A stretch of DNA of 60,175 nucleotides from Bacteroidaceae bacterium (GTDB lineage Bacteria; Bacteroidota; Bacteroidia; Bacteroidales; Bacteroidaceae), in contig JAFUOP010000004.1 of the NCBI GenBank assembly GCA_017481875.1, forward strand, positions 1-60,175. Reading direction: 5' to 3'. Below, piece by piece: positions 15,550-32,753 of this stretch (position 1 is the stretch's first letter; each line of letters opens with the position of its first letter). Position numbers and translations under genes: made by a program. Under the pieces are notes generated by a model. That model saw only the letters and a program-made list of their open reading frames with translations, had not been told where the DNA came from and did no database searches.

Positions 15550-17598
15550 TTATTTCATCATCTCTATGCTGCGCTTCACAAAGTTATTCAGTGCCTCGCC
15601 AGTGAGCATGTTATTCTGCAACAGGGTGATGTCTATTAGTTGTCGCACAGTGTTGTTGCTTGCTGCGTAGCTTGCGAGTATAGCCTCTTTCTCGCTCTTT
15701 GCATCGGTTATGTTTTTCTCAATTTCCCCGAGCTCGTCTTTTTCACTCTGTGGTACATCTTCCTCTTTTTTGCCCTTGCGTGCATCGTAGAGCTCTTTGC
15801 GGCGGCTCTCCCACGCAGTGGTCTTTTCGTCGATGGAGCTGAGCTTTTCGGCGCAGCTTGTCTCGGCATCGGCAAGAACACGTTTAATAAGTGGGTGCTC
15901 CTCGTTTATGAGTATGTTGTACATATCGGGCATATCGCCATAGAACGACATTCCGGCCTGTATCGATGCCATCTCCTTCATACGACGCATATACTCGGCT
16001 TGGGTTATCATTACGGGTGCGCCGTTTTCGCCCATTGCCTGTGCCATTACATAGAACTCTTTCTTCTCCATTGTGGGTAGCTGGCTTTGGAACACGCCTG
16101 TGAGTACCTCGCGCTCTTTCTCGCCGAGAGTAGATGATTTCTGTTCCTCTTTTACAATGAGGTTTTCTATAATATCACTATCAACTCGTGTAAAGCGGCT
16201 CTTCTCAAATTTGCGTTCAAGGAGGCTGATGAGGGCTACATCGAGCTGGCCGTCCATACTCAACACGTTGTAGCCTTTGTTCTTGGCATTCTCTATGAAG
16301 CTATACTCCTTCTCCTTGTCGTTTGAGTATAGGTATATGAGGTTGCCCTCTTTGTCGGTCTGCTCGGTGCCAATGAGGTTCTTGTACTCCTCGTAGGTGT
16401 ATTTCTTGCCGTCGGTGTCCTGCAACAGGGCAAATTTGCTTGCCTTGTCGTAGAAATCCTCCTCGGTGAGCATTCCGTAGTGTATGAAAATTTTCAAGTC
16501 GTTCCATTTCTCCTCGAATTGTGTGCGGTCGGTCTTGAAAATAGATTGCAAGCGGTCTGATACTTTTTTTGATATGTATGAAGAAATCTTCTTTACATTG
16601 GAGTCGCTTTGCAGGTATGAACGCGATACGTTCAAAGGAATATCGGGCGAGTCTATAACACCGTGCATGAGGGTGAGGAAGTCGGGTACGATGCCTTCAA
16701 CCTCGTCGGTTACATATACCTGGTTGCAGAATAGCTGTATTTTGTTCTTTTGCAGGTCCAAGTTGCTCTTTACCTTGGGGAAGTAAAGAATGCCGGTGAG
16801 GTGGAAGGGAAAATCCACGTTCAGGTGTATCCAGAAGAGGGGCTCGTCGCTCATGGGGTAGAGCTTGCGGTAGAACTCCTTGTAGTCCTCGTCTTTGAGT
16901 TCGGCGGGCTTGCGTGTCCACAGCGGGGTGGTGTCGTTTATTATGTTGTCCTCGGTGGTTTCTACCTGCTTGCCATCTTTCCACTCTTTTTTCTTGCCAA
17001 AAGCAATTTCCACCGGCAAGAAACGGCAATATTTGTTCAGTATGTTGCTTATGCGGCTCTCCTCCAGGAACTCCTTGCTATCGTCGTCGATGTACATTAT
17101 AATATCGGTACCGCGAGTAGCCTTGTCGCACTCCTCCAATGTGTATTCGGGGCTGCCGTCGCAACTCCATTTAACGGCCTGCGCACCCTCTTTGTACGAT
17201 TTTGTAACAATCTCCACCTTTTTAGATACCATAAAAGCTGAGTAGAATCCAAGGCCAAAGTGTCCAATGATGGAGTTTGCGCTGTCTTTGTACTTCTCCA
17301 GGAAGTCGGTTGCGCCCGAAAGGGCTATCTGGTTAATGTACTTTTCAATCTCCTCTGCAGTGAGGCCAATACCGTTGTCGCTCACTGTAATGGCATCGTT
17401 GCTTAGAGACACCGTTACCTTCATATTCCCAAGCTCGCCTTTGAACTCACCCTTTTCGTAGAGGGTTTTCAGTTTTTGTGTGGCATCTATGGCGTTTGAT
17501 ACTATCTCGCGCAAGAAAATCTCGTGGTCGCTGTAAAGAAACTTTTTAATTACGGGGAAAATGTTTTCGGTTGTTACCCCAATGTTACCTTTTTGCAT
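15550..17598 (-). CDS. htpG: molecular chaperone HtpG (Hsp90)
   Basis: 682 residues. The N-terminal GHKL ATPase domain has E31, N35 and D39 in EIVSNAIDA, DNGIG at 74-78 and the lid motif GHFGLGFYSAF at 112-122. Middle and C-terminal dimerisation domains follow. A charged segment near 575-640 (KGKKEEDVPQSEKDELGEIE) is longer than in E. coli HtpG. This ATP-dependent dimeric chaperone remodels client proteins in the cytoplasm. Its start lies 74 bp from a strong sigma54-like promoter, and the next gene upstream is clpC on the same strand, separated by a terminator. Confidence 0.98.
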   Translation of the reverse strand: MQKGNIGVTTENIFPVIKKFLYSDHEIFLREIVSNAIDATQKLKTLYEKGEFKGELGNMKVTVSLSNDAITVSDNGIGLTAEEIEKYINQIALSGATDFLEKYKDSANSIIGHFGLGFYSAFMVSKKVEIVTKSYKEGAQAVKWSCDGSPEYTLEECDKATRGTDIIMYIDDDSKEFLEESRISNILNKYCRFLPVEIAFGKKKEWKDGKQVETTEDNIINDTTPLWTRKPAELKDEDYKEFYRKLYPMSDEPLFWIHLNVDFPFHLTGILYFPKVKSNLDLQKNKIQLFCNQVYVTDEVEGIVPDFLTLMHGVIDSPDIPLNVSRSYLQSDSNVKKISSYISKKVSDRLQSIFKTDRTQFEEKWNDLKIFIHYGMLTEEDFYDKASKFALLQDTDGKKYTYEEYKNLIGTEQTDKEGNLIYLYSNDKEKEYSFIENAKNKGYNVLSMDGQLDVALISLLERKFEKSRFTRVDSDIIENLIVKEEQKSSTLGEKEREVLTGVFQSQLPTMEKKEFYVMAQAMGENGAPVMITQAEYMRRMKEMASIQAGMSFYGDMPDMYNILINEEHPLIKRVLADAETSCAEKLSSIDEKTTAWESRRKELYDARKGKKEEDVPQSEKDELGEIEKNITDAKSEKEAILASYAASNNTVRQLIDITLLQNNMLTGEALNNFVKRSIEMMK

Positions 17599-17671
17599 AT
17601 CTTTTATCTGTTATTAGTTAATCTTCCATTTAATGTGTGAAACGCACGCATAACGTTTCACAATATTATAA

Positions 17672-17688
17672 ACAAATAAAGTGCCAAA
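17672..17688 (-). promoter_or_regulatory. sigma54-like promoter of htpG
   Basis: On the minus strand the sequence reads TTTGGCACTTTATTTGT, with GG and GT separated by exactly 10 bp, as in -24/-12 promoters. No TAnnTTTG box fits here. The predicted start is near 17661, about 63 nt before the htpG start codon. Confidence 0.6.
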
Positions 17689-17709
17689 TGTGTTGTTCTG
17701 TCAAAATGG

Positions 17710-17748
17710 CAGAGGCTCTTTGGCATTATGTCAGCCAAAGAGCCTCTG
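17710..17748 (-). terminator. clpC terminator hairpin
   Basis: A perfect 15-bp inverted repeat (arms 17710-17724 and 17734-17748, core gaggctctttggc) is followed on the minus strand by TTTTGAC. It ends clpC transcription. It also lies about 70 bp upstream of the predicted htpG start. Confidence 0.8.
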
Positions 17749-17766
17749 CGTGTGGAATAGAGTTGC

Positions 17767-20286
17767 TTATTGCTCTGTTTCTTGAATGTTGAATTTTAGT
17801 TTATCACCTTCTGCAACCACCACAATGTGGTCCCCGGCTTTCAATGAACCGCATAAAAGTAATTCCGATATTTCATCTTCAACATATGTTTGCAATGCTC
17901 GTTTAAGCGGGCGGGCACCGTACTGAATATCGTAACCTTTTTCTGCTAAATATTTTTTTGCTTCGGGGGTTACATCAATGCTATAACCAAGCTCTTCAAC
18001 GCGTTTGATAATCTGTTTAAGCTCTAAATCTACAATGTTTACTATGGCATCAAGCCCCAGCTGGTCGAAGTTTATAATCTCATCTATGCGGTTTATGAAC
18101 TCGGGCGCGAAGCGTTTGTTGAGTGCTTTTTGTATGACGCTGCGCGAATATTCTTTGTCGCCTGCACGCAGGTCTTTTGTAAAGCCTACGCCTGTGCCAA
18201 AGTCTTTTAATTCGCGTGTTCCCACATTTGATGTCATAATGAGCACTGTGTTGCGGAAGTCCACTGTGCGGCCATAGCTGTCGGTGAGACGGCCCTCGTC
18301 CATTACCTGCAACAATAGGTTGAATACATCGGTATGCGCTTTTTCTATCTCATCGAGCAGTACAATAGAGTATGGGCGACGGCGCACTTTCTCGGTGAGT
18401 TGCCCGCCCTCTTCGTAACCTACGTAGCCCGGAGGGGCTCCCACAAGGCGCGACACTGTGAATTTCTCCATATACTCGCTCATATCTACGCGTATGAGTG
18501 CGTCGGCTGAACCGAACATAAATTTTGCAAGTTCTTTTGCAAGCAGTGTTTTTCCTACACCCGTCGGCCCCAGGAACATAAATGTGCCAATAGGCTTGTT
18601 GGGGTTTTGCAGGCCCACACGGCTGCGTTGAATAGCTTTGGTAAGTTTCTCTATTGCACTGTCCTGCGCAATAACTCTTGCTTGAAGTTCCTCTTTCATA
18701 CCGCGCAAGCGTGTCCATTCGTCTTGCTGCATACGTTGCATAGGCACGCCCGAAATCATAGACACAACATTTGCAACGTGCTCTTCGGTAACAGTCTGTC
18801 GGTTGTATGCACGGCTCTTTTCCCATTCGGCTTTCATTGCGGCAAGCTCGGCTTGTAGTTGCTTCTCTCTGTCGCGACTGTTGGCTGCACTCTCAAAATC
18901 CTGACGCTTTACTGCATCGTTCTTCTCGCGGTTTACTTTGTCCAGCAGTGCCTCTTGTTCCTCAATCTCCTTGGGAACATTTATGTTGCTTATATGCATA
19001 CGTGCTCCCACTTCGTCCATTGCATCTATAGCTTTGTCGGGGAAACAGCGGTCCGTTATGTAACGGTCTGTCAATTTGACACACGCTTGCAATGCTTCAT
19101 CGGTGTATGTTACATTGTGGTGGCTTTCGTAACGCTCCTTGATGTTTTTGAGAATGGTGTAGGTGTCGTCGGCCGACGTTGGTTCTACAAGCACTTTTTG
19201 GAAACGACGCTCCAGTGCACCGTCTTTTTCAATGCTTTTGCGGTACTCGTCAATAGTGGTGGCACCAATGCATTGAATCTCACCACGTGCAAGGGCAGGT
19301 TTCAAAATATTGGCGGCGTCCATTGTGCCGGGTGCCGAGCCTGCACCTACAATGGTGTGTATCTCGTCTATGAAAAGAATTATATTGGGGTTCTTTTCCA
19401 TCTCGTTCATTATAGATTGCAGGCGTTCCTCAAACTGCCCGCGGTATTTTGTGCCGGCAACAACGGCTGTCATGTCGAGTGCCACAATGCGCTTGTCAAA
19501 AAGGGTGCGCGATGTTTTGCGTTCTATTATACGTTGTGCCAGCCCCTCAACAATAGCCGATTTTCCCACTCCGGGTTCTCCTATTAAAATAGGATTGTTT
19601 TTCTTGCGGCGGCTCAAAATCTGTGATATTCGCTCAATCTCCTTCTCGCGCCCTACAACCGGGTCGAGTTTTCCTTCTGCTGCTGCACGGGTAATGTCGG
19701 TGCCGAAGTTATCGAGTACAGGAGTGCTGTTGTTGGGTTTTTCGGTGCGTGTGTTTGTGCTGTTAAAAGGTTTGTGGCCGGCATTGTACGGGTTGCCCGG
19801 TGCAGTGTCTTCCTCTTCTTCATCGGGGTCGGTAAAGCCGAACCCGCCGGTGATGTCGGGTTTCATATTCTTAATGGCATCTACCACACGTGAATAATTT
19901 ACATTGTTGCTTTCCAGAATATTGGCGGCAAGGTTCTCCTTTTCTCTTAAAATGCCAAGCAATATATGTTCGGCATCGGTATCTTCCTTGAGACCTCTTG
20001 CTTCTAAGGTGCTGAAACGTAGTATTCTTGCTGCTTTTAACCCTAGCTCTATTTCTCCGTTGGCGGCTTCGCTATTGGCGGGTTCATTAATCTGTTTTTC
20101 TATGCAATCTTTTATGTTTGCAATATCTACATTGAACTTATTCAAGATATCTATTGCAGTGTTTTGTCCTTTTTTTATAATGCCAAGCAAAAGGTGTTCC
20201 GGGTTAATGGTCTTGCTATGCAAACGTTGCGCCTCGTCTTTGCTCAGTGATAATATTTCGGACATTCTTTGTGAAAAATCGTTCAT
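17767..20286 (-). CDS. clpC: ATP-dependent Clp protease ATP-binding subunit ClpC
   Basis: 839 residues. Domain order: double Clp N-domain (about 1-145), an acidic and Asn-rich linker (150-195), AAA+ D1 with Walker A GEPGVGKS (236-243), a UVR-type coiled-coil middle domain (about 440-490), AAA+ D2 with Walker A GPTGVGKT (about 572-579) and a C-terminal D2-small domain. The UVR segment marks ClpC rather than the ClpB disaggregase. It unfolds damaged proteins for ClpP. The gene is transcribed alone, ends in a strong hairpin before htpG, and has a sigma54-like promoter about 150 bp upstream. Confidence 0.96.
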   Translation of the reverse strand: MNDFSQRMSEILSLSKDEAQRLHSKTINPEHLLLGIIKKGQNTAIDILNKFNVDIANIKDCIEKQINEPANSEAANGEIELGLKAARILRFSTLEARGLKEDTDAEHILLGILREKENLAANILESNNVNYSRVVDAIKNMKPDITGGFGFTDPDEEEEDTAPGNPYNAGHKPFNSTNTRTEKPNNSTPVLDNFGTDITRAAAEGKLDPVVGREKEIERISQILSRRKKNNPILIGEPGVGKSAIVEGLAQRIIERKTSRTLFDKRIVALDMTAVVAGTKYRGQFEERLQSIMNEMEKNPNIILFIDEIHTIVGAGSAPGTMDAANILKPALARGEIQCIGATTIDEYRKSIEKDGALERRFQKVLVEPTSADDTYTILKNIKERYESHHNVTYTDEALQACVKLTDRYITDRCFPDKAIDAMDEVGARMHISNINVPKEIEEQEALLDKVNREKNDAVKRQDFESAANSRDREKQLQAELAAMKAEWEKSRAYNRQTVTEEHVANVVSMISGVPMQRMQQDEWTRLRGMKEELQARVIAQDSAIEKLTKAIQRSRVGLQNPNKPIGTFMFLGPTGVGKTLLAKELAKFMFGSADALIRVDMSEYMEKFTVSRLVGAPPGYVGYEEGGQLTEKVRRRPYSIVLLDEIEKAHTDVFNLLLQVMDEGRLTDSYGRTVDFRNTVLIMTSNVGTRELKDFGTGVGFTKDLRAGDKEYSRSVIQKALNKRFAPEFINRIDEIINFDQLGLDAIVNIVDLELKQIIKRVEELGYSIDVTPEAKKYLAEKGYDIQYGARPLKRALQTYVEDEISELLLCGSLKAGDHIVVVAEGDKLKFNIQETEQ

Positions 20287-20434
20287 ATCTTCTTCTCCTC
20301 AATCAAAAACAATAGGGTGAATAAATGGTTTTTCTAGTTGTTATTCCCTCGTGTCAAAATGTGGTTATCTTTTGACTTTGCGAAGATATAACCATAATTT
20401 TGTGTGGAAACAATATTTTTACATAAGAATTCTT

Positions 20435-20451
20435 ACAAAAACCGTGCCAAA
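20435..20451 (-). promoter_or_regulatory. sigma54-like promoter of clpC
   Basis: On the minus strand the sequence reads TTTGGCACGGTTTTTGT, with GG-N10-GT spacing and a near-perfect -24 element. The predicted start near 20424 leaves a leader of about 138 nt before clpC. Upstream DNA (20452-20580) is AT-rich, with no clear long palindrome. Confidence 0.6.
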
Positions 20452-20581
20452 CTCTTAAATTACTATAACAAATGCTATTTATTTTCTCTATTTTATATAA
20501 AATATCTTTTAAAATATTTTTCCCCTTCCCCTGATACTAATATTATTCTCGGTTTTTGAGCCTAATCCCGTTTTTTTTTCT

Positions 20582-20589
20582 TATTTTCG
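20582..20589 (+). promoter_or_regulatory. -7 promoter box of aspS
   Basis: TATTTTCG lies 37 bp before the aspS start and fits the TAnnTTTG/TAnnTTCG pattern. The 20287-20625 interval holds only this promoter and the clpC promoter, pointing in opposite directions. Confidence 0.5.
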
Positions 20590-20625
20590 CAAGTTAAAAC
20601 GTTTAATCAAAAAAAATAGTATAAA

Positions 20626-22389
20626 ATGTTTCGTACAAATACTTGTGGCGAACTTCGTTTGTCCGATGTAAATAAAACAGTTACTTTGAGTGGTTGGGTG
20701 CAACGTGCCCGCAAAATGGGTGGTATGACATTTGTCGATTTGCGCGACCGCTATGGTATAACTCAGTTGGTTTTCAGCGAGGATAGCAATGCCGAACTTT
20801 GCGAGAAGGCTTCGCACTTGGGCCGTGAATATGTTATTCAGGCAACAGGCGTGGTGAGTGAGCGACAGAGCAAGAATGCCAATATTCCCACCGGTGATAT
20901 TGAAATTATTGTTAGTGAGTTGAATATTTTGAATGAGGCTGTAACACCTCCTTTTACAATAGAGAACAACACCGATGGTGGCGACGATATACGTATGAAG
21001 TACCGCTACCTCGACCTTCGTCGCGAGGCTGTGCGTCGTAATCTTGAAATACGTCACCAGATGACAATGGAGGTGCGCCGCTACCTCGATTCTATGAACT
21101 TCATAGAGGTTGAAACACCTATGCTCATAGGTTCTACCCCCGAGGGTGCACGCGACTTTGTGGTGCCTTCTCGTATGAACCCCGGGCAGTTCTATGCACT
21201 GCCCCAGAGCCCGCAGTTGTTCAAGCAGTTGCTTATGGTGTCGGGCTTCGACCGTTATTTTCAAATTGTTAAATGTTTCCGCGACGAGGACCTGCGTGCC
21301 GACCGCCAGCCCGAGTTTACACAAATAGATTGTGAGATGAGCTTTGTGGAGCAAGAAGATGTCATCACTTTGTTCGAGGGTATGGCAAAGCACTTGTTCA
21401 AAACAATACGTGGCGTGGAGCTCACCGAGGCGTTCCCCCGTATCACCTGGCACGATGCTATGAAGTACTATGGCAGCGACAAGCCCGACACACGCTTTGA
21501 AATGAAGTTTGTGGAGCTTATGGATATAATGAAAGGCCACGGCTTCGGTGTCTTTGACAGTGCCGAGTACATTGGTGGTATCTGTGCAAAGGGTGCTGCA
21601 ACATACACCCGTAAGCAGCTCGATGCTCTCACCGATTTTGTGCGTCGCCCGCAGATTGGTGCAAAGGGTATGGTTTATGCCCGTGTGGAGGCCGACGGCA
21701 CAGTGAAATCGAGTGTAGATAAATTCTATTCGCAAGAGGTGTTGCAGCAGATGAAGACGGCTTTTGCTGCCGAGGCAGGCGACCTCATTCTCATTTTGAG
21801 TGGCGACGATGCTATGAAAACCCGTAAGCAACTGTGCGAGTTGCGCCTTGAGGTGGCACAGCAGCTTGGCCTGCGCGACAAGAACAAGTTCTCTTGTTTG
21901 TGGGTTGTGGATTTCCCCTTGTTCGAGTACAGCGAGGAGGAGGGCCGTTATATGGCTATGCATCACCCCTTCACATCACCTAAGCCCGAAGATATCCCCT
22001 TGCTCGACACCGACATGGGTGCCGTGCGTGCCAATGCCTATGATATGGTAATTAACGGTGTAGAAGTGGGCGGTGGCTCCATTCGTATATACGACAGCGA
22101 GCTGCAGAACAAGATGTTTGCTCTGCTTGGTTTCACACCCGAGCGTGCACAGCAGCAGTTTGGTTGGTTGCTCGATGCATTTAAGTATGGTGCACCTCCT
22201 CACGGTGGTCTTGCCTATGGCCTAGACCGTTGGGTGAGCCTCTTTGCCGGTTTGGATTCAATACGCGACTGCATTGCATTCCCCAAAAATAATTCGGGCC
22301 GCGACACAATGATTGATGCCCCCTCGGTTCTCGACCCCGCGCAGCTCGATGAACTTAATATTGCACTCGATTTAAAGGAGGGAAAATAA
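20626..22389 (+). CDS. aspS: aspartate--tRNA ligase
   Basis: 587 residues. N-terminal OB anticodon-binding domain (about 1-110, with [15 protein letters not shown]), class II catalytic core with motif 2 ([18 protein letters not shown]) and motif 3 (GLAYGLDRW), and the bacterial GAD insertion between them. The segment [16 protein letters not shown] is typical of bacterial AspRS. The enzyme charges tRNA-Asp in the cytoplasm. The stop codon overlaps the start of a small membrane-protein gene (TAATG), so the two are translationally coupled. Confidence 0.98.
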
Positions 22390-22553
22390 TGGCTGTGAAG
22401 AAGAAAAGCGAGGCGCGTATTGTCAAGGAGCGCAAACGCAAAGCCGACAAGAAGCGCAAGCAGATGTTGAAGCAGATTGCAGTTATTGTACTTATAGTGG
22501 TTCTTGCAGCAATGTTGATATTTGCTTTTGCTGCCACACCAAAGGCTGTGTAA
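22389..22553 (+). CDS. small basic single-pass membrane protein
   Basis: 54 residues, beginning [20 protein letters not shown]. The first 30 residues are extremely basic (KERKRKADKKRKQ), followed by one hydrophobic helix (about 31-48, IAVIVLIVVLAAMLIFAF) and a short tail. The start overlaps the aspS stop by one base (TAATG), and a strong terminator follows 17 bp after the stop, both supporting a real gene. I do not recognise a named family. The basic segment could contact membrane lipid, RNA or ribosomes, which is speculation. Confidence 0.7.
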   Translation: MAVKKKSEARIVKERKRKADKKRKQMLKQIAVIVLIVVLAAMLIFAFAATPKAV

Positions 22554-22569
22554 ATAACAGTTATATATA

Positions 22570-22606
22570 CTAAAAAATCCGTCGCAGACTGCGACGGATT
22601 TTTTAG
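22570..22606 (+). terminator. terminator of the aspS operon
   Basis: A perfect 16-bp inverted repeat (arms 22570-22585 and 22591-22606) has the core ccgtcgc/gcgacgg followed by T6. Confidence 0.9.
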
Positions 22607-22821
22607 TATATAAGTGTCAATGTTTTGCCAAAAACTTGGTTCGGTAGCAAAAAGGTGTTTGCACTCACCATACTCGCACTCTTTCCTGCAAATGCTCTGA
22701 TAAACACTGTGATTTTAACGGTGCCGGTTTCTTTTTTCGAATTACCATTGCAGGAGGTTTTTCGTTGCACAAAGGGCAGCGTGAGCGCACAGGTTATTAA
22801 AGAATCAATTTGTTATATACA

Positions 22822-22849
22822 AAGAATGCCGCGAATTCGCGGCATTCTT
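22822..22849. terminator. perfect 28-bp palindrome downstream of the DPP-IV gene
   Basis: The arms aagaatgccgcgaa and ttcgcggcattctt form a perfect palindrome 20 bp after the stop of the minus-strand peptidase gene. The interval 22607-22821 holds no gene I can support. Confidence 0.7.
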
Positions 22850-22868
22850 GCATTATATAAATTTACTT

Positions 22869-25073
22869 TTACTTCAAATTCTCGATGAAGAATTTGGCAA
22901 TGCGTGTAAAGAGGTGGAAACGAGTGTTGCTACCGTGATAAATACTGTGGTTGCTGTCGGGGTAGAGTGCCATTTCAAACTCTTTGTTTGCTTGGTTTAA
23001 TGCGTGTGTGTAAAGTATCATATTACGCAAGTGTACATTGTCGTCGGCTGTGCCGTGTATAAGCAGCAGCTTGCCATTGAGCTTGTCTGCATTTACAATG
23101 GCCGACCCTTTGTCGTAACCCTCTTTGTTCTCTTTGGGTGTGCGCATATAACGCTCTGTATAAACAGTGTCGTAGAAACGCCAGTCGGTGGGTGCTGCCA
23201 CTGCAACACCGGCCTTGAACACTGCGTCGTCCTGGCTCATAGACATAATGGTGTTGTAGCCGCCAAAGCTCCAGCCCCAAATACCAATGTTGTTTTTATC
23301 TACGTAGGGTAGTGAACCCAAGTATTTTGCAGCCTCTACTTGGTCGCCTGGCTCGTAAACGCCAATATTAAGGTATGTGCATTTGCCAAATTCAGTTCCA
23401 CGGCCACCGGTTCCGCGTCCATCGACACACGCCATTATAAAGCCCTCGTTTGCCATGTAACTCTCGAACATTGCGTTGCCGTAGTTTCCAATGTACCAAC
23501 TGTCGTTCACCTGTTGCGAGTAGGGGCCGCTGTACTGGAACATTACCACGGGGTATTGCTTGCTTGCATCGAAATCGGCGGGTTTTATCAGCCAACCATT
23601 GAGCTGTGTGCCATCGCTGGTGTTGAAGGTGAAGAACTCCTTGGTAGGCATGTTGAACTTGGCAAGGCTCTCCACAAGGGCTTTGTTGTCGATAAGTGTC
23701 TTTATAGTCTTGCCACTGTTGTCGTTTGTTGTTACTATGTGCGGGGTGTTAATGTTCGAGAATGTGTTAATGAAATATTTCAACCCATTGCTGAACACCG
23801 CGCTGTTGCTGCCCACGCCCTTGGTCAATTGCGTCTTTTTGCCTTTGGCATTTACCTTATATATATTGTCGCGCAGGGGGCTGCCCTCGTTGCTGCGGTA
23901 GTAGAATTCGTTTTTCTTCTTGTCCCAGCCAAAGAACTCTTTTACCTCAAAATTGCCTTCGGTTATGGGGCGCACAAGTTCTCCTCCTGTGGTGTAGAGG
24001 TATAGGTGGTTATAGCCGCTACGCTCGCTGTGGAGTATAAAGTGGTTGCCAATGAACTCAATGTTTGCATATACCTGCTCGTTTAGGTAGGTGTCGCTCT
24101 CTTCGCGTACAATGCGTTTGCTTATGCCCGAAAGAGGGTTCACTGTAAAAATATCCATTATATTTTGGTGGCGGTTCAGTGTGAGCACAGCGAGTGTGTT
24201 GGCGTCGTCGGTGAATTTTATGCGTGGAATGTAGCCCTCTTCGGGAATGGGTACATCTAATTGACGTGTCTTGCGGCTCTTTATGTCGAATGAGTGAACC
24301 GAAATCTTTGAGTTTGCAGCTCCTGCTACAGGGTATTTGAAACTGTATGGTTCGCAGAAGGGTATCATTGAGGTATTTTCTTTGCCCCCGGGCAGGTACA
24401 TAGGCATGTCGTACATCATTACCTCGCTCTCGTCATATTTTACATATGCAATAACCTTGCTGTCGGCACTGAAGTCATATGAACAGTTGGTCATAAACTC
24501 CTCTTCATTTACCCAGTCGGGTATTCCGTTTATTATCTTGCCGGCTGCACCGTCGGTAGTTATCTGCGACTCGCTGTTGTCGAACAGCAGCTTCACAAGG
24601 AATATGTCGTTGTTGCGCACAAATGCAATCATGGTGCCGTCGGGCGAGAATTTAGGTACCTGCTGGGCTCCGTTCTGCGATAGTGGGGCTACTTTGTTGT
24701 TTTTGCGCGAGAATATATAGTGCTCGGCGGTGAAGGAGTTGCGATAGATTCCCACTGTGCTTGTTTGCAACAGAATGCGGCTCTCGTCGGGCGAGAATTG
24801 GTAGCCGTCGATACGTGTCTTGTCGAAACCGCGTGCTGTGGCTGCGTTGAAGAGAGTATCTACAATGCTGCCGTCTTTAAACGAGCCCATAAGAATCATT
24901 GAACGGTCGCTGCTCATGCGGGCAAAGTGTTCTCCGTCGGCCATAGGTTGTATGGCTGCATAAGTCTGTGGCCAATAACCACCGTACATGGCATCGGTGA
25001 GCTTGAACTTGTCGCCGGCCTGTGTTGCAGTAGCGGCAATAAGTGTGATGAAGAGTGTGAGTAATTTTTTCAT
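22869..25073 (-). CDS. dipeptidyl peptidase IV-like serine peptidase (S9B)
   Basis: 734 residues. A signal peptide ends near ATQA at residue 19, then an eight-bladed beta-propeller (about 40-490) and an alpha/beta-hydrolase domain. The catalytic triad is visible: S602 in GWSFGGY, the Asp pair D677/D678 in HGTADDNVH and H709 in DSNHSIYHG. The propeller carries the substrate-amine-binding glutamates in DWVNEEEF (190-192), as in DPP-IV. It removes X-Pro or X-Ala dipeptides from the N-terminus of peptides in the periplasm or at the surface. Bacteroidales use such enzymes to feed on peptides. The gene is monocistronic. Confidence 0.94.
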   Translation of the reverse strand: MKKLLTLFITLIAATATQAGDKFKLTDAMYGGYWPQTYAAIQPMADGEHFARMSSDRSMILMGSFKDGSIVDTLFNAATARGFDKTRIDGYQFSPDESRILLQTSTVGIYRNSFTAEHYIFSRKNNKVAPLSQNGAQQVPKFSPDGTMIAFVRNNDIFLVKLLFDNSESQITTDGAAGKIINGIPDWVNEEEFMTNCSYDFSADSKVIAYVKYDESEVMMYDMPMYLPGGKENTSMIPFCEPYSFKYPVAGAANSKISVHSFDIKSRKTRQLDVPIPEEGYIPRIKFTDDANTLAVLTLNRHQNIMDIFTVNPLSGISKRIVREESDTYLNEQVYANIEFIGNHFILHSERSGYNHLYLYTTGGELVRPITEGNFEVKEFFGWDKKKNEFYYRSNEGSPLRDNIYKVNAKGKKTQLTKGVGSNSAVFSNGLKYFINTFSNINTPHIVTTNDNSGKTIKTLIDNKALVESLAKFNMPTKEFFTFNTSDGTQLNGWLIKPADFDASKQYPVVMFQYSGPYSQQVNDSWYIGNYGNAMFESYMANEGFIMACVDGRGTGGRGTEFGKCTYLNIGVYEPGDQVEAAKYLGSLPYVDKNNIGIWGWSFGGYNTIMSMSQDDAVFKAGVAVAAPTDWRFYDTVYTERYMRTPKENKEGYDKGSAIVNADKLNGKLLLIHGTADDNVHLRNMILYTHALNQANKEFEMALYPDSNHSIYHGSNTRFHLFTRIAKFFIENLK

Positions 25074-25211
25074 TGTATTTTTTTTATAAATTATTGCATT
25101 TATGTTTGTGGTTACGAAGATAGTTAATCTTTTTTATATTAGCCCCCGAAAAGAGAGGTATAATCGTTCTGTTTTTTGTAATTTTGCAGTAAACCGCGAA
25201 TTTTATTCTAT

Positions 25212-26144
25212 ATGAGTGTTGTTGAGCGTTTTTATTACAATGACTTTGGAAGTTACTTGCAAAAACAGTTCCCTTTCAAAGTGCAAAAGATAACTCTTGA
25301 TGGTGGTTTCACCTGCCCCAATCGCGATGGCACAAAGGGGTGGGGTGGCTGCACATATTGCAATAACCGCACCTTTAACCCGGCCTACTGCCATAGAAAT
25401 AAACCTATTGCCCGGCAGATGCGTGAGGGCATAGCTTTTTTTGCACACAAATACCCGCAAATGCGTTATCTTGCCTATTTTCAGGCCTATACAAATACTT
25501 ATGAATCACTTGCTGTGTTGCAGAAACGCTACGAAGAGGCTTTGGTTGTTGAGGGCTGTGTGGGCATTGTTATTGGTACCCGCCCCGATTGTATGCCACC
25601 CTCTCTGCTTGCCTACCTGCAAGAGCTTGCGCAGCGCACATTCGTTCTTGTGGAGTACGGCATTGAGAGTTGTAGCGATGCCACCCTGCTACGCATAAAT
25701 CGCGGGCACGACTATGCCACGGTGGTTGATGCCGTAGAGCGCACGGCAGCCTGCGGAATTCCGGTGGGCGGGCACATAATACTTGGCTTGCCGGGCGAGG
25801 ACAAGGCTGAACTTATGCGGCAAGCAACTGAACTTTCAAAATTGCCATTAACAACGCTTAAAATGCATCAGTTACAGCTGATACGTGGCACTCGTATGGC
25901 CGAAGAGTATGCCGAGCAACCAAGTGATTTTCACCTCTTCTCTCTCAATGATTATGTAGAAACCGTTGTGGATTATATAGAACGTTTACGCCCCTCGCTT
26001 GTGCTCGAACGCTTTGCATCGCAATCGCCCAAAGAGTTGCTTGTTGCGCCCGACTGGGGCATAAAAAACTATGAGCTTGTGGAGAAGGTAAAGAAACGTA
26101 TGCGTGAACGTGATACCTGGCAAGGAAGGCTGTACGGGCTTTAA
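25212..26144 (+). CDS. TIGR01212-family (YhcC) radical SAM protein
   Basis: 310 residues. The iron-sulfur cluster motif is CX11CX2C (C35, C47, C50, within CPNRDGTKGWGGCTYC), which is diagnostic of the YhcC/TIGR01212 family rather than the common CX3CX2C. Further family segments are QAYTNTY, GTRPDC, EYGIESC and GGHIILGLPGE. It is a cytoplasmic radical S-adenosylmethionine enzyme, possibly acting on tRNA, but the substrate of the family was not settled to my knowledge. The gene is alone, with a perfect terminator palindrome after it. Confidence 0.93.
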   Translation: MSVVERFYYNDFGSYLQKQFPFKVQKITLDGGFTCPNRDGTKGWGGCTYCNNRTFNPAYCHRNKPIARQMREGIAFFAHKYPQMRYLAYFQAYTNTYESLAVLQKRYEEALVVEGCVGIVIGTRPDCMPPSLLAYLQELAQRTFVLVEYGIESCSDATLLRINRGHDYATVVDAVERTAACGIPVGGHIILGLPGEDKAELMRQATELSKLPLTTLKMHQLQLIRGTRMAEEYAEQPSDFHLFSLNDYVETVVDYIERLRPSLVLERFASQSPKELLVAPDWGIKNYELVEKVKKRMRERDTWQGRLYGL

Positions 26145-26178
26145 ATAAAACAAGAGTTCACGTGTGAACCTTGTAGAT

Positions 26179-26212
26179 AAAACACAAAATGACAATTGTC
26201 ATTTTGTGTTTT
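26179..26212. terminator. bidirectional terminator palindrome
   Basis: A perfect 34-bp palindrome (17 bp per arm, core aatgacaattgtcatt) with A-rich and T-rich ends lies between the convergent radical SAM gene and ispE. Confidence 0.85.
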
Positions 26213-26219
26213 TAGAAAT

Positions 26220-27050
26220 TCATTCGCACTTGCTGCACCAGCAGAACATACCGGGGAACGCCGCCTTAATATCTTCCACGCTATGCTCCTCTTTGAAAAT
26301 ACCAAAGAACGATGAGCCAGAACCCGACATAGATGCATACACTGCCCCCATAGCGTATAGCTTCTCTTTTATGACCTCGCACGCAGGGTGTTTGGCAAAC
26401 ACGCTCTTTTCAAAGTCGTTCTTCATAGCTCCCTTCCACTGCTCGACGGGCAGGGTGGCAATGTGGGTGAGGGGTGTTGCGGGTGCGGCAGGCACCACAA
26501 GCGAGTAGGCCTCTTTGGTGGATATATGAATGTCGGGCTTCACCAATACTAGGTGGTAGCCCGCGAGGCTGCAAGGGGTGGGGGATAGTATATTACCGAT
26601 TCCTGTGGCATATGCGGGTGTGTTCCTTATGAAGAAGGCGCAGTCGGCCCCAAGGCGTGCGGCATACTCCTCCAACTGCTCGTCGGTGAGCCCTAGTGCG
26701 GCAATCTCGTTAAGCATTTTAAGTGCAAAGGCGGCGTCGGCCGAGCCACCTCCCAGGCCTGCACCGGTGGGTATGTGCTTGTAGAGCGAAATATCCACTT
26801 TGGGCAGTTTGTGGTCGGCTGCAAGAATCTTGTATGCCTTCACTACGAGGTTGTCGTCGTCGATGCCATCGAACCTGGCGTTGAACATCTTGAATGTATA
26901 AGCCGGGGCCTCCTCATCGGCAGGTGTTATCTCCAGAATATCCTGCAGGGGAATGGGGTAGAAGATGGTTTCAAGGTTGTGGTAACCGTCGGGGCGGCGT
27001 TCCACAACGTCGAGCCCCAAGTTTATTTTTGCGTTTGGAAAGGTAATCAT
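26220..27050 (-). CDS. ispE: 4-diphosphocytidyl-2-C-methyl-D-erythritol kinase
   Basis: 276 residues from the ATG at 27050. The frame stays open 102 nt further upstream, but the family start MITFPNAKINLGL is here and a promoter box (27075-27082) lies just ahead. It is a GHMP kinase of the methylerythritol phosphate pathway of isoprenoid synthesis. K8 lies in AKINLGL, and the ATP-binding motif PTGAGLGGGSADA spans about 94-106. The C-terminal motif MSGSGSSFFG is intact. The gene stands alone. Confidence 0.97.
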   Translation of the reverse strand: MITFPNAKINLGLDVVERRPDGYHNLETIFYPIPLQDILEITPADEEAPAYTFKMFNARFDGIDDDNLVVKAYKILAADHKLPKVDISLYKHIPTGAGLGGGSADAAFALKMLNEIAALGLTDEQLEEYAARLGADCAFFIRNTPAYATGIGNILSPTPCSLAGYHLVLVKPDIHISTKEAYSLVVPAAPATPLTHIATLPVEQWKGAMKNDFEKSVFAKHPACEVIKEKLYAMGAVYASMSGSGSSFFGIFKEEHSVEDIKAAFPGMFCWCSKCE

Positions 27051-27074
27051 AGCTTTCGTCTTTTTCTCTTGTGG

Positions 27075-27082
27075 CAAAAATA
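27075..27082 (-). promoter_or_regulatory. -7 promoter box of ispE
   Basis: On the minus strand it reads TATTTTTG, a match to TAnnTTTG, 25 bp before the ispE start codon. Confidence 0.6.
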
Positions 27083-27138
27083 ACCCTTTAATTCTTTTTT
27101 TGCAATAGCAGCCTGCTTGGCTACTTAAATGCCCGTGT

Positions 27139-27245
27139 GTGCGCTTTCGCACGCGCAGTGTGCATTATCGCACACTCTAGAGGTGCTGCGTGGCGTGCTA
27201 ATGCGCTGTTTATTACTGCATTATCGTTTTGGCACGCTTTTTGTG
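27139..27245 (+). promoter_or_regulatory. upstream sigma54-like promoter with two inverted repeats
   Basis: TTGGCACGCTTTTTGTG at 27229-27245 has GG-N10-GT spacing. Upstream lie two inverted repeats: gtgcg/cgcac (27139-27152) and agtgtgc/gcacact (27157-27176), centred about 90-110 bp before the predicted start near 27255. This is where sigma54 activators bind. No convincing gene follows before the thioredoxin cluster, so this promoter would give a leader of about 465 nt or a noncoding RNA. Confidence 0.5.
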
Positions 27246-27602
27246 TATGCATTTATGTGTGGTCTGCAAAAATATAAAATATAAATTTTAGAACTCTAAA
27301 ATCCTTTTTTTAGATCTATTTTTATGCAGTACGTGGCTTCTGTTTTATATTTGTGCAATAAATGCGGGTGCAAAGTATAAGAATTTGTTTATGGAATTTT
27401 GTAACCTATTTTCATTATAGGTGTCTATATGTAAAAGGAATCTCACTTTGTTTTAACAAATTTTAACAGGGGGGGTAAATGTATGAATGAAGGAAATTAT
27501 ATTTGCAGGGTAAATGATATTGCAAACGAATTGCAAATTTGGCATTTGCTGTTTACACCTAATATCTATGTTACTTTGTATTACAGTGTTGCAAAACCGT
27601 AC

Positions 27603-27628
27603 ACCATTGTCCGCAAACGGACAATGGT
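27603..27628 (+). promoter_or_regulatory. candidate activator-binding palindrome
   Basis: accattgtccg and cggacaatggt are perfect 11-bp inverted arms around caaa. The centre is about 78 bp upstream of the predicted start of the sigma54-like promoter at 27667, the typical position of an enhancer-binding site. It is too far from any stop codon to be a terminator and is not followed by a T-run. Confidence 0.55.
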
Positions 27629-27666
27629 AGAAATGATAAACTATTATTAACCAATGTATTAAATTT

Positions 27667-27683
27667 TTGGCACGATTTTTGTA
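27667..27683 (+). promoter_or_regulatory. sigma54-like promoter of the TlpA-like cluster
   Basis: TTGGCACGATTTTTGTA has GG (27669-27670) and GT (27681-27682) separated by exactly 10 bp. The predicted start near 27693 leaves a 27-nt leader before the ATG at 27720. No TAnnTTTG box overlaps it. Confidence 0.65.
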
Positions 27684-27719: not shown

Positions 27720-29378
27720 ATGAAAAAACTGCTTTCTACACTTTTGTTTCTGCTCACAAGTTTTGGCATTGCCGCGCAGTGGGCTCCTGCGATAAACGAG
27801 TATCACTATCGTGGTGGCATGGTATGTTTCCGTGGGGAATTTATAAATGTGCCCGACGGCAAATACCCTCCTCATATTCTGTTGTTATTCGATAATATTT
27901 TCGCAAACACCGAGGAAACCGTGCTTGTAACCGTAAACAGCGACGGCTCTTTCAATAGCAATGTGCATATCCCCCACAGCTCAACACTCTATCTGCGTGC
28001 CGACGGTTATGAAAACTCACTCCCCAACGACCTCTATTTCTTTGTAGGCGACACTGTTACATTAACCGTAGATGCCGCAGCCCACAAAACAACCATCGCA
28101 CCCGGGAGCATAGCCTATTGGGTGGACCACTGCCGTAATATCCACGAGGAACTCTATAGCAAAAGTCCATACGGCGACCTCTCCTCTTGGTACGAGGTGG
28201 GCCGTAAAGGTACACGCGACGATGTTGAAAAGTTCTGCCGCAATCTTGGCAAGGTGGTGGAGCACACTATTATTGATATTGAAAAAGGCAATTTCCCCTT
28301 GCCTGCCGATATACACCCTATAGCAGCCGATATAATAAGAATAAATGCCATCTTCACCGGGTTGTATCATATATTGGATATACGTTCTCTTTATAACTAC
28401 CGCAAATATGCACCCCATTTCGACGAGGCAAGCGGGCGCACCATTCCCAAGGCTGTAGAGGGCTTTGAACCACTCGACAATAAATGGCTGTTCAAGTTCT
28501 TGAAAAAGCACGAAACTATCTTGCTCGATAATCCCCTTGCCGCGCTATATGAAAATGCCGATGTTCTCATAAACCGTATGGAGTTCGGCCCTTGGGACTT
28601 TAATTGCAACGATTTCACACTACCCATAAAGAGCGGCACTCCCCAAGATATAGAAGATTACGCCTTTGAATTTGTGCTGCCTGCCGAATATGACAAACAA
28701 TTCCTTGACGCGGCACTCCCTATGCGTGGCGACACACTGCTCACCATAAGCGAGGCGTTTACCGGTGTCATCGAGCGGTTACAAGAGGAGACAGGCCTGC
28801 AATGCACGGGCTTTATGATGCAGTGGCAGATAATGCGCCACCTGTTCGGCTTCAGAATAAAAGAGCAACAGGCCCACCCCGATGTGGTTGCCGAGTATGT
28901 TGCCGAGGCAATGCCCTTCTTCACCAGCCCCATAATAAGCCATCACTTTATAAAGGCCTATCGCGAATATGTGAAGAAATACGAGGTGGCAACAGCTGGC
29001 GACAACATTACCGACGACGAGGTGTTGCAACGTATAATAGCCCCCTACAAGGGCAACATACTATTCCTCGATTTTTGGAATATGGGCTGTGGCCCCTGCC
29101 GTGCCGCAATGATGGAGCAGCGCAGTTTTCTGAATGAGATGAAGGGACAACCCGTAAAGTTCCTGTATATCACCGAGGATAAGTACCGCGAAGCATCGGA
29201 AGAATGGCTCGGCAGCACATGCATAGAAGGTGAGCACATATACATCAGCAGCGACGATTGGAACTATCTGCAGGCAAAACTGCGTTTTATCGGTATTCCC
29301 TTCTCTTGCATTGTAGATATGAATGGCACGCTGCACCGCGATATGAACCACACAATGGTAATTGAATACTTGCCTTGA
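27720..29378 (+). CDS. exported TlpA-like thioredoxin-domain protein (1 of 4)
   Basis: 552 residues. A signal peptide ends near GIAAQ at about residue 20. A beta-rich N-terminal region (about 25-125) resembles DUF4369. A long helical middle region (about 130-430) follows, and then a C-terminal thioredoxin-like domain with CGPC at 457-460 and a cis-proline segment GIPF. The domain ends with no extension. Members of this Bacteroidota family are periplasmic thiol-disulfide oxidoreductases, often lipid-anchored, but there is no lipobox here. Substrates are unknown. It is the first gene after the sigma54-like promoter and begins a cluster of four paralogues in the same orientation. Confidence 0.85.
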   Translation: MKKLLSTLLFLLTSFGIAAQWAPAINEYHYRGGMVCFRGEFINVPDGKYPPHILLLFDNIFANTEETVLVTVNSDGSFNSNVHIPHSSTLYLRADGYENSLPNDLYFFVGDTVTLTVDAAAHKTTIAPGSIAYWVDHCRNIHEELYSKSPYGDLSSWYEVGRKGTRDDVEKFCRNLGKVVEHTIIDIEKGNFPLPADIHPIAADIIRINAIFTGLYHILDIRSLYNYRKYAPHFDEASGRTIPKAVEGFEPLDNKWLFKFLKKHETILLDNPLAALYENADVLINRMEFGPWDFNCNDFTLPIKSGTPQDIEDYAFEFVLPAEYDKQFLDAALPMRGDTLLTISEAFTGVIERLQEETGLQCTGFMMQWQIMRHLFGFRIKEQQAHPDVVAEYVAEAMPFFTSPIISHHFIKAYREYVKKYEVATAGDNITDDEVLQRIIAPYKGNILFLDFWNMGCGPCRAAMMEQRSFLNEMKGQPVKFLYITEDKYREASEEWLGSTCIEGEHIYISSDDWNYLQAKLRFIGIPFSCIVDMNGTLHRDMNHTMVIEYLP

Positions 29379-29433
29379 CCTTGCCGATGACAAAAGCAGC
29401 ATCTGAATAATCAATCTCAAAACAACCAACAAA

Positions 29434-30702
29434 ATGAACAAGATATTACTAACCCTGCTATTTGCATTTGCCACCATTAGTGGCTTTGCACAGGAGTGCA
29501 TAGACTATAACAAAAAACTACATTGTCACATTGAGGGCGAGGTAAAAGAGAGTACTTTTACACGTATATTACTCGTGATTGGTAACGGCGACCCAAAAGT
29601 AGTACCGGTCGATACTATCTGGGTTAAGGATGGGCGTTTCTCGTACGACCTTTATACCGACGCTCCTGAATTCTATCAGCTGTTTGCTTGTGAGGATTAC
29701 AACAATGGTTGTTGGATGCCGCTGGATTTCTTTGCCGAGGAGGGAGATGTTTATGCTACATTCTACGGCTATGCAATAGATGATGCTTCACTTCCTACAC
29801 TGCATTCACAGACACCGCTCAACAAAGAGCTGATAGCCTACAATAAAGGCATTGAAGAAAGGTTCTACTTGCCTATGAGACAGGAGGAGGCTGCTTTGGA
29901 GAAAGCAGGAAAACTTTTAACAGCTGAAGGGGCAGCACTCAAGAGACTATATGATGAATGTGAAGACCGCGATTCGTTAAATAGCCTTAGAGAGAAAATA
30001 GAGCTGTTAGAGAAAGAAAACCGCCTTTATACGCCGGAATACAAGGCATTTATGGCGAAAGGAGAAGAGTTAAGAAAAGAGATGTATGCATATGAACTTG
30101 ACTACATCACGAACAACCCGAACCTGGTAGGACTTTATCTGCTCAACCAAGCAACGCAAAGGCTTTATAACAAAGACGATGCTGCTAAACAGCCATACGT
30201 GGATTTATTTAAGAACATATATGATACAAAGTACCCTACAAACAACATGGCAATTAACTTACGTAATTGGGTATCATCGATGGATGTGCGTGTAGGCTCA
30301 CGATTTATTGATTTTACTCTTCCCGACCTCAACGGAGCAAGACACACCCTCTCGAAAGAGATTGAGGGGAAGATTGCTGTTGTCGATTTTTGGGCATCGT
30401 GGTGCGGTCCCTGCAGACGTCAATCGATGAGCTTCATTCCATTGTACAACAAATACAAGGATAAGGGATTCACTGTCGTTGGAGTGGCAAGCGAACTGGA
30501 TAGTGAAAATATGAGGTTAGCCGTGGAGAAAGACGGTTATCCTTGGCTCAACCTGTTGGCACTGCGAGGTGTGGAAAATATTTGGGAACGTTATGGTATC
30601 AGAGGTGCCGGAGAGGTTTTCCTTATTGACAGAGATGGTACAATTCTTGCAGTAGGAGCAACCGCCGAGGAGGTAGAACAGATACTAAAAGAAAGATTAT
30701 AA
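29434..30702 (+). CDS. exported TlpA-like thioredoxin-domain protein (2 of 4)
   Basis: 422 residues, the shortest of the four. The signal peptide ends at GFAQ (residue 20). A DUF4369-like beta domain spans about 25-125, a helical linker with a coiled-coil look about 130-215, and an AhpC/TSA-TlpA domain runs from about 288. The redox motif is CGPC at 324-327, in FWASWCGPCRRQ. The cis-proline normally found in GIPxxxLID is missing: the segment reads YGIRGAGEVFLID. That residue helps substrate recognition in thioredoxins, so specificity may differ. It follows gene 1 by 55 bp and precedes gene 3 by 14 bp. Confidence 0.88.
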   Translation: MNKILLTLLFAFATISGFAQECIDYNKKLHCHIEGEVKESTFTRILLVIGNGDPKVVPVDTIWVKDGRFSYDLYTDAPEFYQLFACEDYNNGCWMPLDFFAEEGDVYATFYGYAIDDASLPTLHSQTPLNKELIAYNKGIEERFYLPMRQEEAALEKAGKLLTAEGAALKRLYDECEDRDSLNSLREKIELLEKENRLYTPEYKAFMAKGEELRKEMYAYELDYITNNPNLVGLYLLNQATQRLYNKDDAAKQPYVDLFKNIYDTKYPTNNMAINLRNWVSSMDVRVGSRFIDFTLPDLNGARHTLSKEIEGKIAVVDFWASWCGPCRRQSMSFIPLYNKYKDKGFTVVGVASELDSENMRLAVEKDGYPWLNLLALRGVENIWERYGIRGAGEVFLIDRDGTILAVGATAEEVEQILKERL

Positions 30703-30716
30703 TTTGTAAGCGTAAA

Positions 30717-32741: not shown

Positions 32742-32753
32742 TTACATTTTGTT

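Follow-up and report, generated by a model that had tools for sequence, protein, structure and literature searches.

Do four copies of one short motif, standing before a chaperone gene, a Clp ATPase gene and a cluster of thioredoxin-like genes, mark sigma-54 promoters, and do they belong to one regulon? The question is raised by a stretch of 60,175 nucleotides from an uncultured gut bacterium of the family Bacteroidaceae (GenBank assembly GCA_017481875.1, contig JAFUOP010000004.1), the whole of which is called the window here. An earlier note on this DNA had proposed an RpoN-dependent folding or envelope-stress regulon from the motifs before htpG, clpC and the TlpA-like cluster. The promoter part of that claim stood and the single regulon did not. 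Control by RpoN (sigma-54) is well supported, and the four sites look like working promoters because such sites are conserved at htpG, clpC and dnaK, rpoN is present in 148 of 151 family genomes and the genome encodes three strong bacterial enhancer-binding proteins (bEBPs). The promoters do not appear to form one regulon, because the palindromes before htpG and dnaK, before the first TlpA promoter and before the second differ and clpC has none of them. All four are probably sigma-54 promoters that answer to several circuits of bEBP and upstream activating sequence (UAS).

A metagenome-assembled genome (MAG, labelled G000) of 2.02 Mb in 48 contigs contains the window as its contig C37. Compared by HtpG, the titled relatives that match best are Bacteroidaceae MAGs recovered from the colon and rectum of sheep, at 97 and 96% identity. 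The core TTGGCAC-N5-TTGT was found as four exact matches at the positions first reported, compared with a mean of 0.57 in shuffled sequence, and four or more matches were reached in 0 of 100 shuffles. As had been claimed, all four lie in intergenic DNA and are oriented toward htpG, clpC and the TlpA-like cluster. The end of the site is 73 bp from the start codon of htpG, 148 bp from that of clpC and 475 and 37 bp from that of the TlpA-like open reading frame (ORF) at 27720-29378. No TAnnTTTG box was present in any of the sites or in the 8 bp to either side, again in agreement with the earlier observation; sigmaA-like boxes do nonetheless occur near the clpC and TlpA sites.

In the genome-wide scan that had been suggested, the motif TTGGCACNNNNNTTGY had 21 matches in the MAG and 0 in a reversed control. 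Six are candidate promoters, located before dnaK, a tolC-type gene (outer membrane efflux protein, OEP), htpG, clpC and, twice, the TlpA-like cluster, while the other 15 were sorted as non-promoter (nine in an 84-bp repeat, five internal to ORFs and one in a hairpin before secA). Across 41 genomes of the genus 440 matches were counted against 51 in the reversed control, repeats included. The nine repeat copies were rejected as promoters, TATCTTTGC reading as a sigmaA -7 box. We also rejected secA as a fifth target because its match sits within a perfect hairpin with 20-bp arms (L148:2503-2549) that is probably a terminator; this hairpin contains TTGGCACACTTTTTGT, and terminator-like elements of the kind are a trap for sigma-54 scans.

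Conservation was examined at 30 of the 36 htpG, 30 of the 37 clpC, 30 of the 36 groES and 30 of the 34 dnaK matches in the genus and at loci of titled relatives, the titled htpG set being the best 80 of at least 550. Of 30 genus htpG loci 29 have a site upstream (the window's own among them; the remaining one is truncated), at -53 to -279 and mostly as CTGGCATTTTTTTTGT. So do 75 of the 80 titled loci, compared with 64 of 1270 background windows and with 13 of 4000 shuffled sequences. For clpC a site was present in 28 of 30 genus loci (-122 to -240), in 6 of 6 further clpC stretches and in 56 of the 58 titled loci with sufficient upstream DNA, a count without a separate control. Every one of 29 genus dnaK loci carried the site once a truncated locus had been dropped, as did 29 of 30 groES loci, all from relatives, for which the search expression was loosened after the sequences were seen; the same expression was then applied unchanged to dnaK. 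Rows left out were G172 (truncated htpG and clpC) and L331 (truncated dnaK) and, for clpC, G154 (153 bp upstream, no site) and L259 (87 bp upstream). Bacteroides fragilis (L219) has a site before both htpG and clpC. At the htpG promoters of loci L210-L287 many Bacteroidaceae share almost the same 16 bp, CTGGCATTTTTTTTGY, from one end of the core to the other and across its spacer, which exceeds what the sigma-54 consensus requires.

A search with PF04552 found no rpoN in the MAG, which is 75.8% complete, and this keeps the missing match from being a clean case of the refutation named in the earlier note. The 148 family genomes with a match include all 8 congeners drawn, and those with none are the MAG, G050 and G131. 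The bEBP activators that the earlier note had asked after are present as three strong PF00158 proteins, two with receiver, AAA+ and helix-turn-helix (HTH) domains and one with AAA+ and HTH only, and their loops read GAFTDA, GAFTDA and GAFTGA. The receiver-less bEBP has 14 residues ahead of its AAA+ domain and a Fis-type HTH at its end, and an LptE-domain ORF overlaps its gene in the MAG; in the six congeners checked an ORF of 175-176 amino acids, similar by eye, begins 14 bp before the end of the receiver-less bEBP gene. Of the two response regulators, the one on contig C20 adjoins a histidine kinase (HATPase_c) and is divergent from OEP, HlyD and ATP-binding cassette (ABC) genes; HlyD and MacB/FtsX-type (MacB_PCD) genes lie divergent to the one on contig C2.

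A 15-bp palindrome, UAS1, with the consensus CTGNCA-N3-TGNCAG, immediately precedes the htpG site. It was scored as matches to the ten fixed letters of the consensus with cut-offs of >=9 in the genus and >=8 in the titled loci, and the sets for htpG and clpC were confirmed by a second scoring. A score of at least nine was reached in the genus before 27 of 29 htpG, 15 of 29 dnaK and 11 of 29 groES loci (shuffles 0 to 0.3%; htpG 0.000) and before 0 of 28 clpC loci. Among the titled loci at least eight letters matched before 74 of 75 htpG genes (shuffles 3.3%), with 72 of these palindromes 24-26 bp from the site, and before 2 of 55 clpC genes (shuffles 2.0%).

The spacing between UAS1 and the site varied at the other chaperone genes. 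Both elements were found in 27 of 30 groES loci, at spacings of 35, 46, 55-56, 64-67 and 76-78 bp (one of the 27 has an additional match at 84), and in 26 of 29 dnaK loci, at 76-78 (18 loci), 88-90 (7) and 55 bp (1); the dnaK loci were fetched only after the spacing steps at htpG and groES had been noted. Six periods were tried. At 10.5 bp the resultant was 0.860 (n=53), and 0.731 for the 14 distinct values (p~6e-4); 10 and 11 bp were significant and weaker than 10.5, and 9.5 and 11.5 bp were not significant for the distinct values. Because the spacing runs in helical steps of about 10.5 bp, we read the protein bound at UAS1 as one that would have to face the polymerase. The receiver-less bEBP encoded beside lptE is most likely this activator, because by elimination it is the sole strong bEBP in four congeners that keep UAS1 (G130, 90% complete; G167, 92%; G176, 84%; G179, 88%). 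All four keep UAS1 and a site at dnaK, and the three in which htpG was found (G130, G167 and G179) keep them at htpG as well.

Two minor features of the htpG region were noted. A palindrome that at first looked CIRCE-like, GTGAAACG-N9-CGTTTCAC, which follows the htpG site (17636-17662), was rejected as it was not seen in the relatives inspected. A strong hairpin 3' of clpC at 17709-17749, probably the clpC terminator, overlaps the edge of UAS1.

Different palindromes precede the two TlpA promoters. UAS2 consists of two GTGCG-N4-CGCAC-type palindromes 21 bp apart. Of 24 bEBP loci picked, 18 have such a pair upstream of the efflux operon, near -91/-70 (one at -113/-91), and 15 of the 18 have an outer-membrane-efflux-like ORF by eye. 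The pair before TlpA promoter 1, at -92/-71, is also present in G116 and, less regular, in G175. UAS3, GTGTCCG-N4-CGGACAC, lies 61 bp before TTGGCAC-N5-TTGA of the HlyD operon in 7 of 7 C2-type loci, with constant arms and four varying middle bases, and was absent from the other receiver-type bEBP loci examined. Its inner arms recur 60 bp before TlpA promoter 2, again also in G116 and G175. The middle bases are CAAA in the window (27603-27628) and TTTG in G175 (L142), where the arms agree. UAS2 and UAS3 were not found before htpG (0 of 30), dnaK (0 of 29) or, in the genus, clpC (0 of 28). Homologues of the TlpA-like proteins at E 1e-20 occur in 15 of the 41 genus genomes, and the two promoters were not found at 8 further loci, two of which have <350 bp upstream; the wiring of the cluster to sigma-54 looks recent. 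The stretch between the two promoters (27245-27660) is highly similar to that of G175 with no common ORF, and a possible 55-codon ORF there was rejected, since a frame difference (by eye) gives it an early stop in G175.

At clpC the sigmaA-like box TATCTTCG is likely to be a second promoter, judging from its place in a conserved block. As to the sigma-54 site, clpC may be activated by a bEBP without a strong binding site or by one that the MAGs have missed. Two further observations concern this region. The block at about 20415-20450 (minus strand) is nearly invariant in the genus through TTATGTAAAAA at the predicted start, a sequence that contains ATG-TAA; conservation of the TTATGTAAAAA type past the promoter was not seen in more distant titled loci. 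A palindrome at 20353-20376 was dropped, as it was not seen in the relatives compared.

Table. Positions in the window of the predicted promoters, candidate activator sites and genes.
Feature	Position	Strand	Basis or remark
htpG (HSP90)	15550..17598	-	NCBIfam NF003555 molecular chaperone HtpG, 627.5 bits
Predicted sigma-54 (-24/-12) promoter of htpG, TTGGCACTTTATTTGT	17672..17687	-	motif match and conservation
UAS1 palindrome, CTGTCAAAATGGCAG	17698..17712		core 24 bp before htpG site
clpC-type Clp ATPase	17767..20286	-	nearest models ClpB and ClpA, both below cut-offs; clpC is our label
SigmaA-like -7 box, TATCTTCG	20381..20388	-	between clpC site and clpC; conserved block, 28 aligned genus sequences
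Predicted sigma-54 promoter of clpC, TTGGCACGGTTTTTGT	20435..20450	-	motif match and conservation
UAS2 palindrome a, GTGTGCGCTTTCGCACGC	27137..27154		92 bp before site at 27229
UAS2 palindrome b, GTGTGCATTATCGCACAC	27158..27175		71 bp before site at 27229
Predicted sigma-54 promoter 1 of TlpA-like cluster, TTGGCACGCTTTTTGT	27229..27244	+	motif match; kept in G116, G175
SigmaA-like box, TATATTTG	27498..27505	+	between TlpA promoters, before second site
UAS3 palindrome, ACCATTGTCCGCAAACGGACAATGGT	27603..27628		60 bp (TTGTCCG start) before site at 27667
Predicted sigma-54 promoter 2 of TlpA-like cluster, TTGGCACGATTTTTGT	27667..27682	+	motif match; kept in G116, G175
Four ORFs with C-terminal thioredoxin-like domains (552, 422, 674, 706 aa)	27720..34874	+	Pfam Thioredoxin_8, Redoxin, AhpC-TSA

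We propose that the four sites would be read by RNA polymerase with sigma-54, and that each promoter would stay shut until an AAA+ bEBP bound at its UAS contacts the polymerase and hydrolyses ATP. The window would be served by at least two or three of the three bEBPs detected. UAS1 at htpG, at dnaK and at groES of the relatives would be bound by the receiver-less bEBP whose gene overlaps lptE, and this protein may be a chaperone activator responding to heat or envelope stress. For UAS2 at TlpA promoter 1 the bound protein would be the response regulator encoded divergently from the tolC-hlyD-ABC efflux operon, and for UAS3 at TlpA promoter 2 the one encoded divergently from the hlyD/macB-type efflux operon. 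clpC would have its conserved sigma-54 promoter, with none of UAS1-3, together with a sigmaA-like promoter. More broadly, we lean slightly toward a general UAS1 chaperone switch in the Bacteroidaceae, set in helical phase at htpG, dnaK and groES, in which one conserved lptE-linked bEBP couples folding with outer-membrane assembly, and toward a TlpA cluster that this lineage has joined, by way of its two stacked promoters, to two different efflux two-component systems.

A number of findings weigh against this proposal. Neither rpoN nor groES was found in the MAG and so both rest on relatives, and the elimination leading to the receiver-less bEBP draws on MAGs that are only 84 to 92% complete. 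The clpC site is conserved, yet none of UAS1, UAS2 and UAS3 accompanies it. Of the 80 titled htpG loci only 25 matched a strict UAS1 expression (24 with both UAS1 and site), and just 11 of 29 groES and 15 of 29 dnaK loci of the genus reached >=9/10. The 24-26 bp between UAS1 and the -24 box of htpG is unusually close for a bEBP, measured against the textbook distance. Secondary UAS1-like matches were present before dnaK at 28, 28, 40, 70 and 85, the one at 85 being the top scorer for its genome. The genomes share ancestry, which makes the p-values look better than they should, and neighbouring distinct spacings are not independent of one another either. Six of the 24 picked bEBP loci have no UAS2, and exact GTGTGC-N6-GCACAC occurs at 15 places with a sigma-54 site within 200 bp at just 5. 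In the C2 system the sites before hlyD finish with TTGA in place of TTGY, and conservation of the TlpA promoters is limited to the three closest genomes, G000, G116 and G175.

The closeness of UAS1 to the htpG -24 box would also suit an operator for a repressor or accessory regulator with an HrcA-, CtsR- or RprY-like role, with the bEBP binding elsewhere or nowhere. RprY of Porphyromonas gingivalis binds the groES, dnaK and clpB promoters and seems repressive according to the part of PMC3646045 drawn on here, where, however, the htpG promoter is unbound although htpG has the best UAS1 in our data. Spacings from 24 to 90 bp in constant helical phase are a better fit to an activator facing the polymerase than to a blocking repressor, and we consider the operator explanation unlikely. 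A single regulon for folding and envelope stress, as in the earlier note, with one activator over it would account for the identical core TTGGCAC-N5-TTGT of all four promoters and for their broad protein-quality and envelope theme, and protein-quality and envelope functions do fall under one sigma-54 motif in the relevant part of PMC9723704. That same part suggests distinct activators for the co-expression clusters, and here three palindromes go each with its own bEBP type, clpC has none and none crosses over between the TlpA promoters and clpC, htpG or dnaK, which makes one activator very improbable. We give least credence to the idea that some or all of the sites are chance matches or other elements (sigmaA promoters, terminators) resembling -24/-12 boxes. 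The 15 of 21 MAG matches sorted as repeats, ORF-internal or hairpin speak for it, but the site is kept while its distance to the gene shifts (htpG -53 to -279; clpC -122 to -240), in distant titled relatives too.

Sigma-54 control of Bacteroidota chaperones is already published. The part of PMC9723704 used here maps transcription starts with a sigma-54 motif (SM4) in Flavobacterium psychrophilum before groES-groEL, dnaK, grpE-dnaJ, htpG, clpB, lon and a thioredoxin-family gene. That species resembles the MAG in having chaperone and thioredoxin-family sigma-54 promoters and three PF00158 proteins; it differs in that the starts were mapped, and the same part of the paper assigns neither an enhancer nor an activator and does not include clpC among the genes. 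A 2025 computational survey (PMC12316311) reports GroEL, GroES, GrpE, DnaJ, DnaK and HSP90 as sigma-54-enriched in Bacteroidota along with COG0542 (Clp ATPases), and cites grpE and groES of B. thetaiotaomicron as sigma-54-dependent; unlike the present work, its main text has 'UAS' and 'upstream activating' 0 times. We found no publication on an enhancer or activator for Bacteroidota chaperone promoters in the open-access literature and few subscription journals, and the split by enhancer type and the UAS1 phase rule are new as far as the open-access literature searched goes.

The predicted activators themselves are of familiar kinds. The receiver-less bEBP was matched by PspF chains in the comparison and like them has no receiver, but its gene overlaps lptE and it scored 267.2 against the NCBIfam PspF cut-off of 443.55 bits. 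PspF-type bEBPs lack an N-terminal receiver and their gene is linked to the psp operon. The C20 and C2 proteins resemble NtrC, AtoC and ZraR in having receiver, AAA+ and HTH_8 domains, an adjoining histidine kinase and a UAS by the target promoter; they differ in their predicted efflux and TlpA-like targets and fall below the curated cut-offs of the NCBIfam models compared. Chaperone induction is less worked out in Bacteroidota than in E. coli or Bacillus. A defined UAS1, its phase rule and one candidate gene by lptE would make the chaperone switch of common gut bacteria testable, and the TlpA case suggests how a new cluster may be joined to existing sigma-54 circuits through gain of a UAS and a core promoter.

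An Rfam scan of the window gave 0 matches at the gathering threshold. The 84-bp tandem repeat mentioned above contains TTGGCACTATCTTTGC and occupies positions 1-240 of the window; it was also found in contigs C7, C23, C42 and C45 of G000. Four contigs, the window among them, carry it at an end or close to one, and in C45 it is internal.

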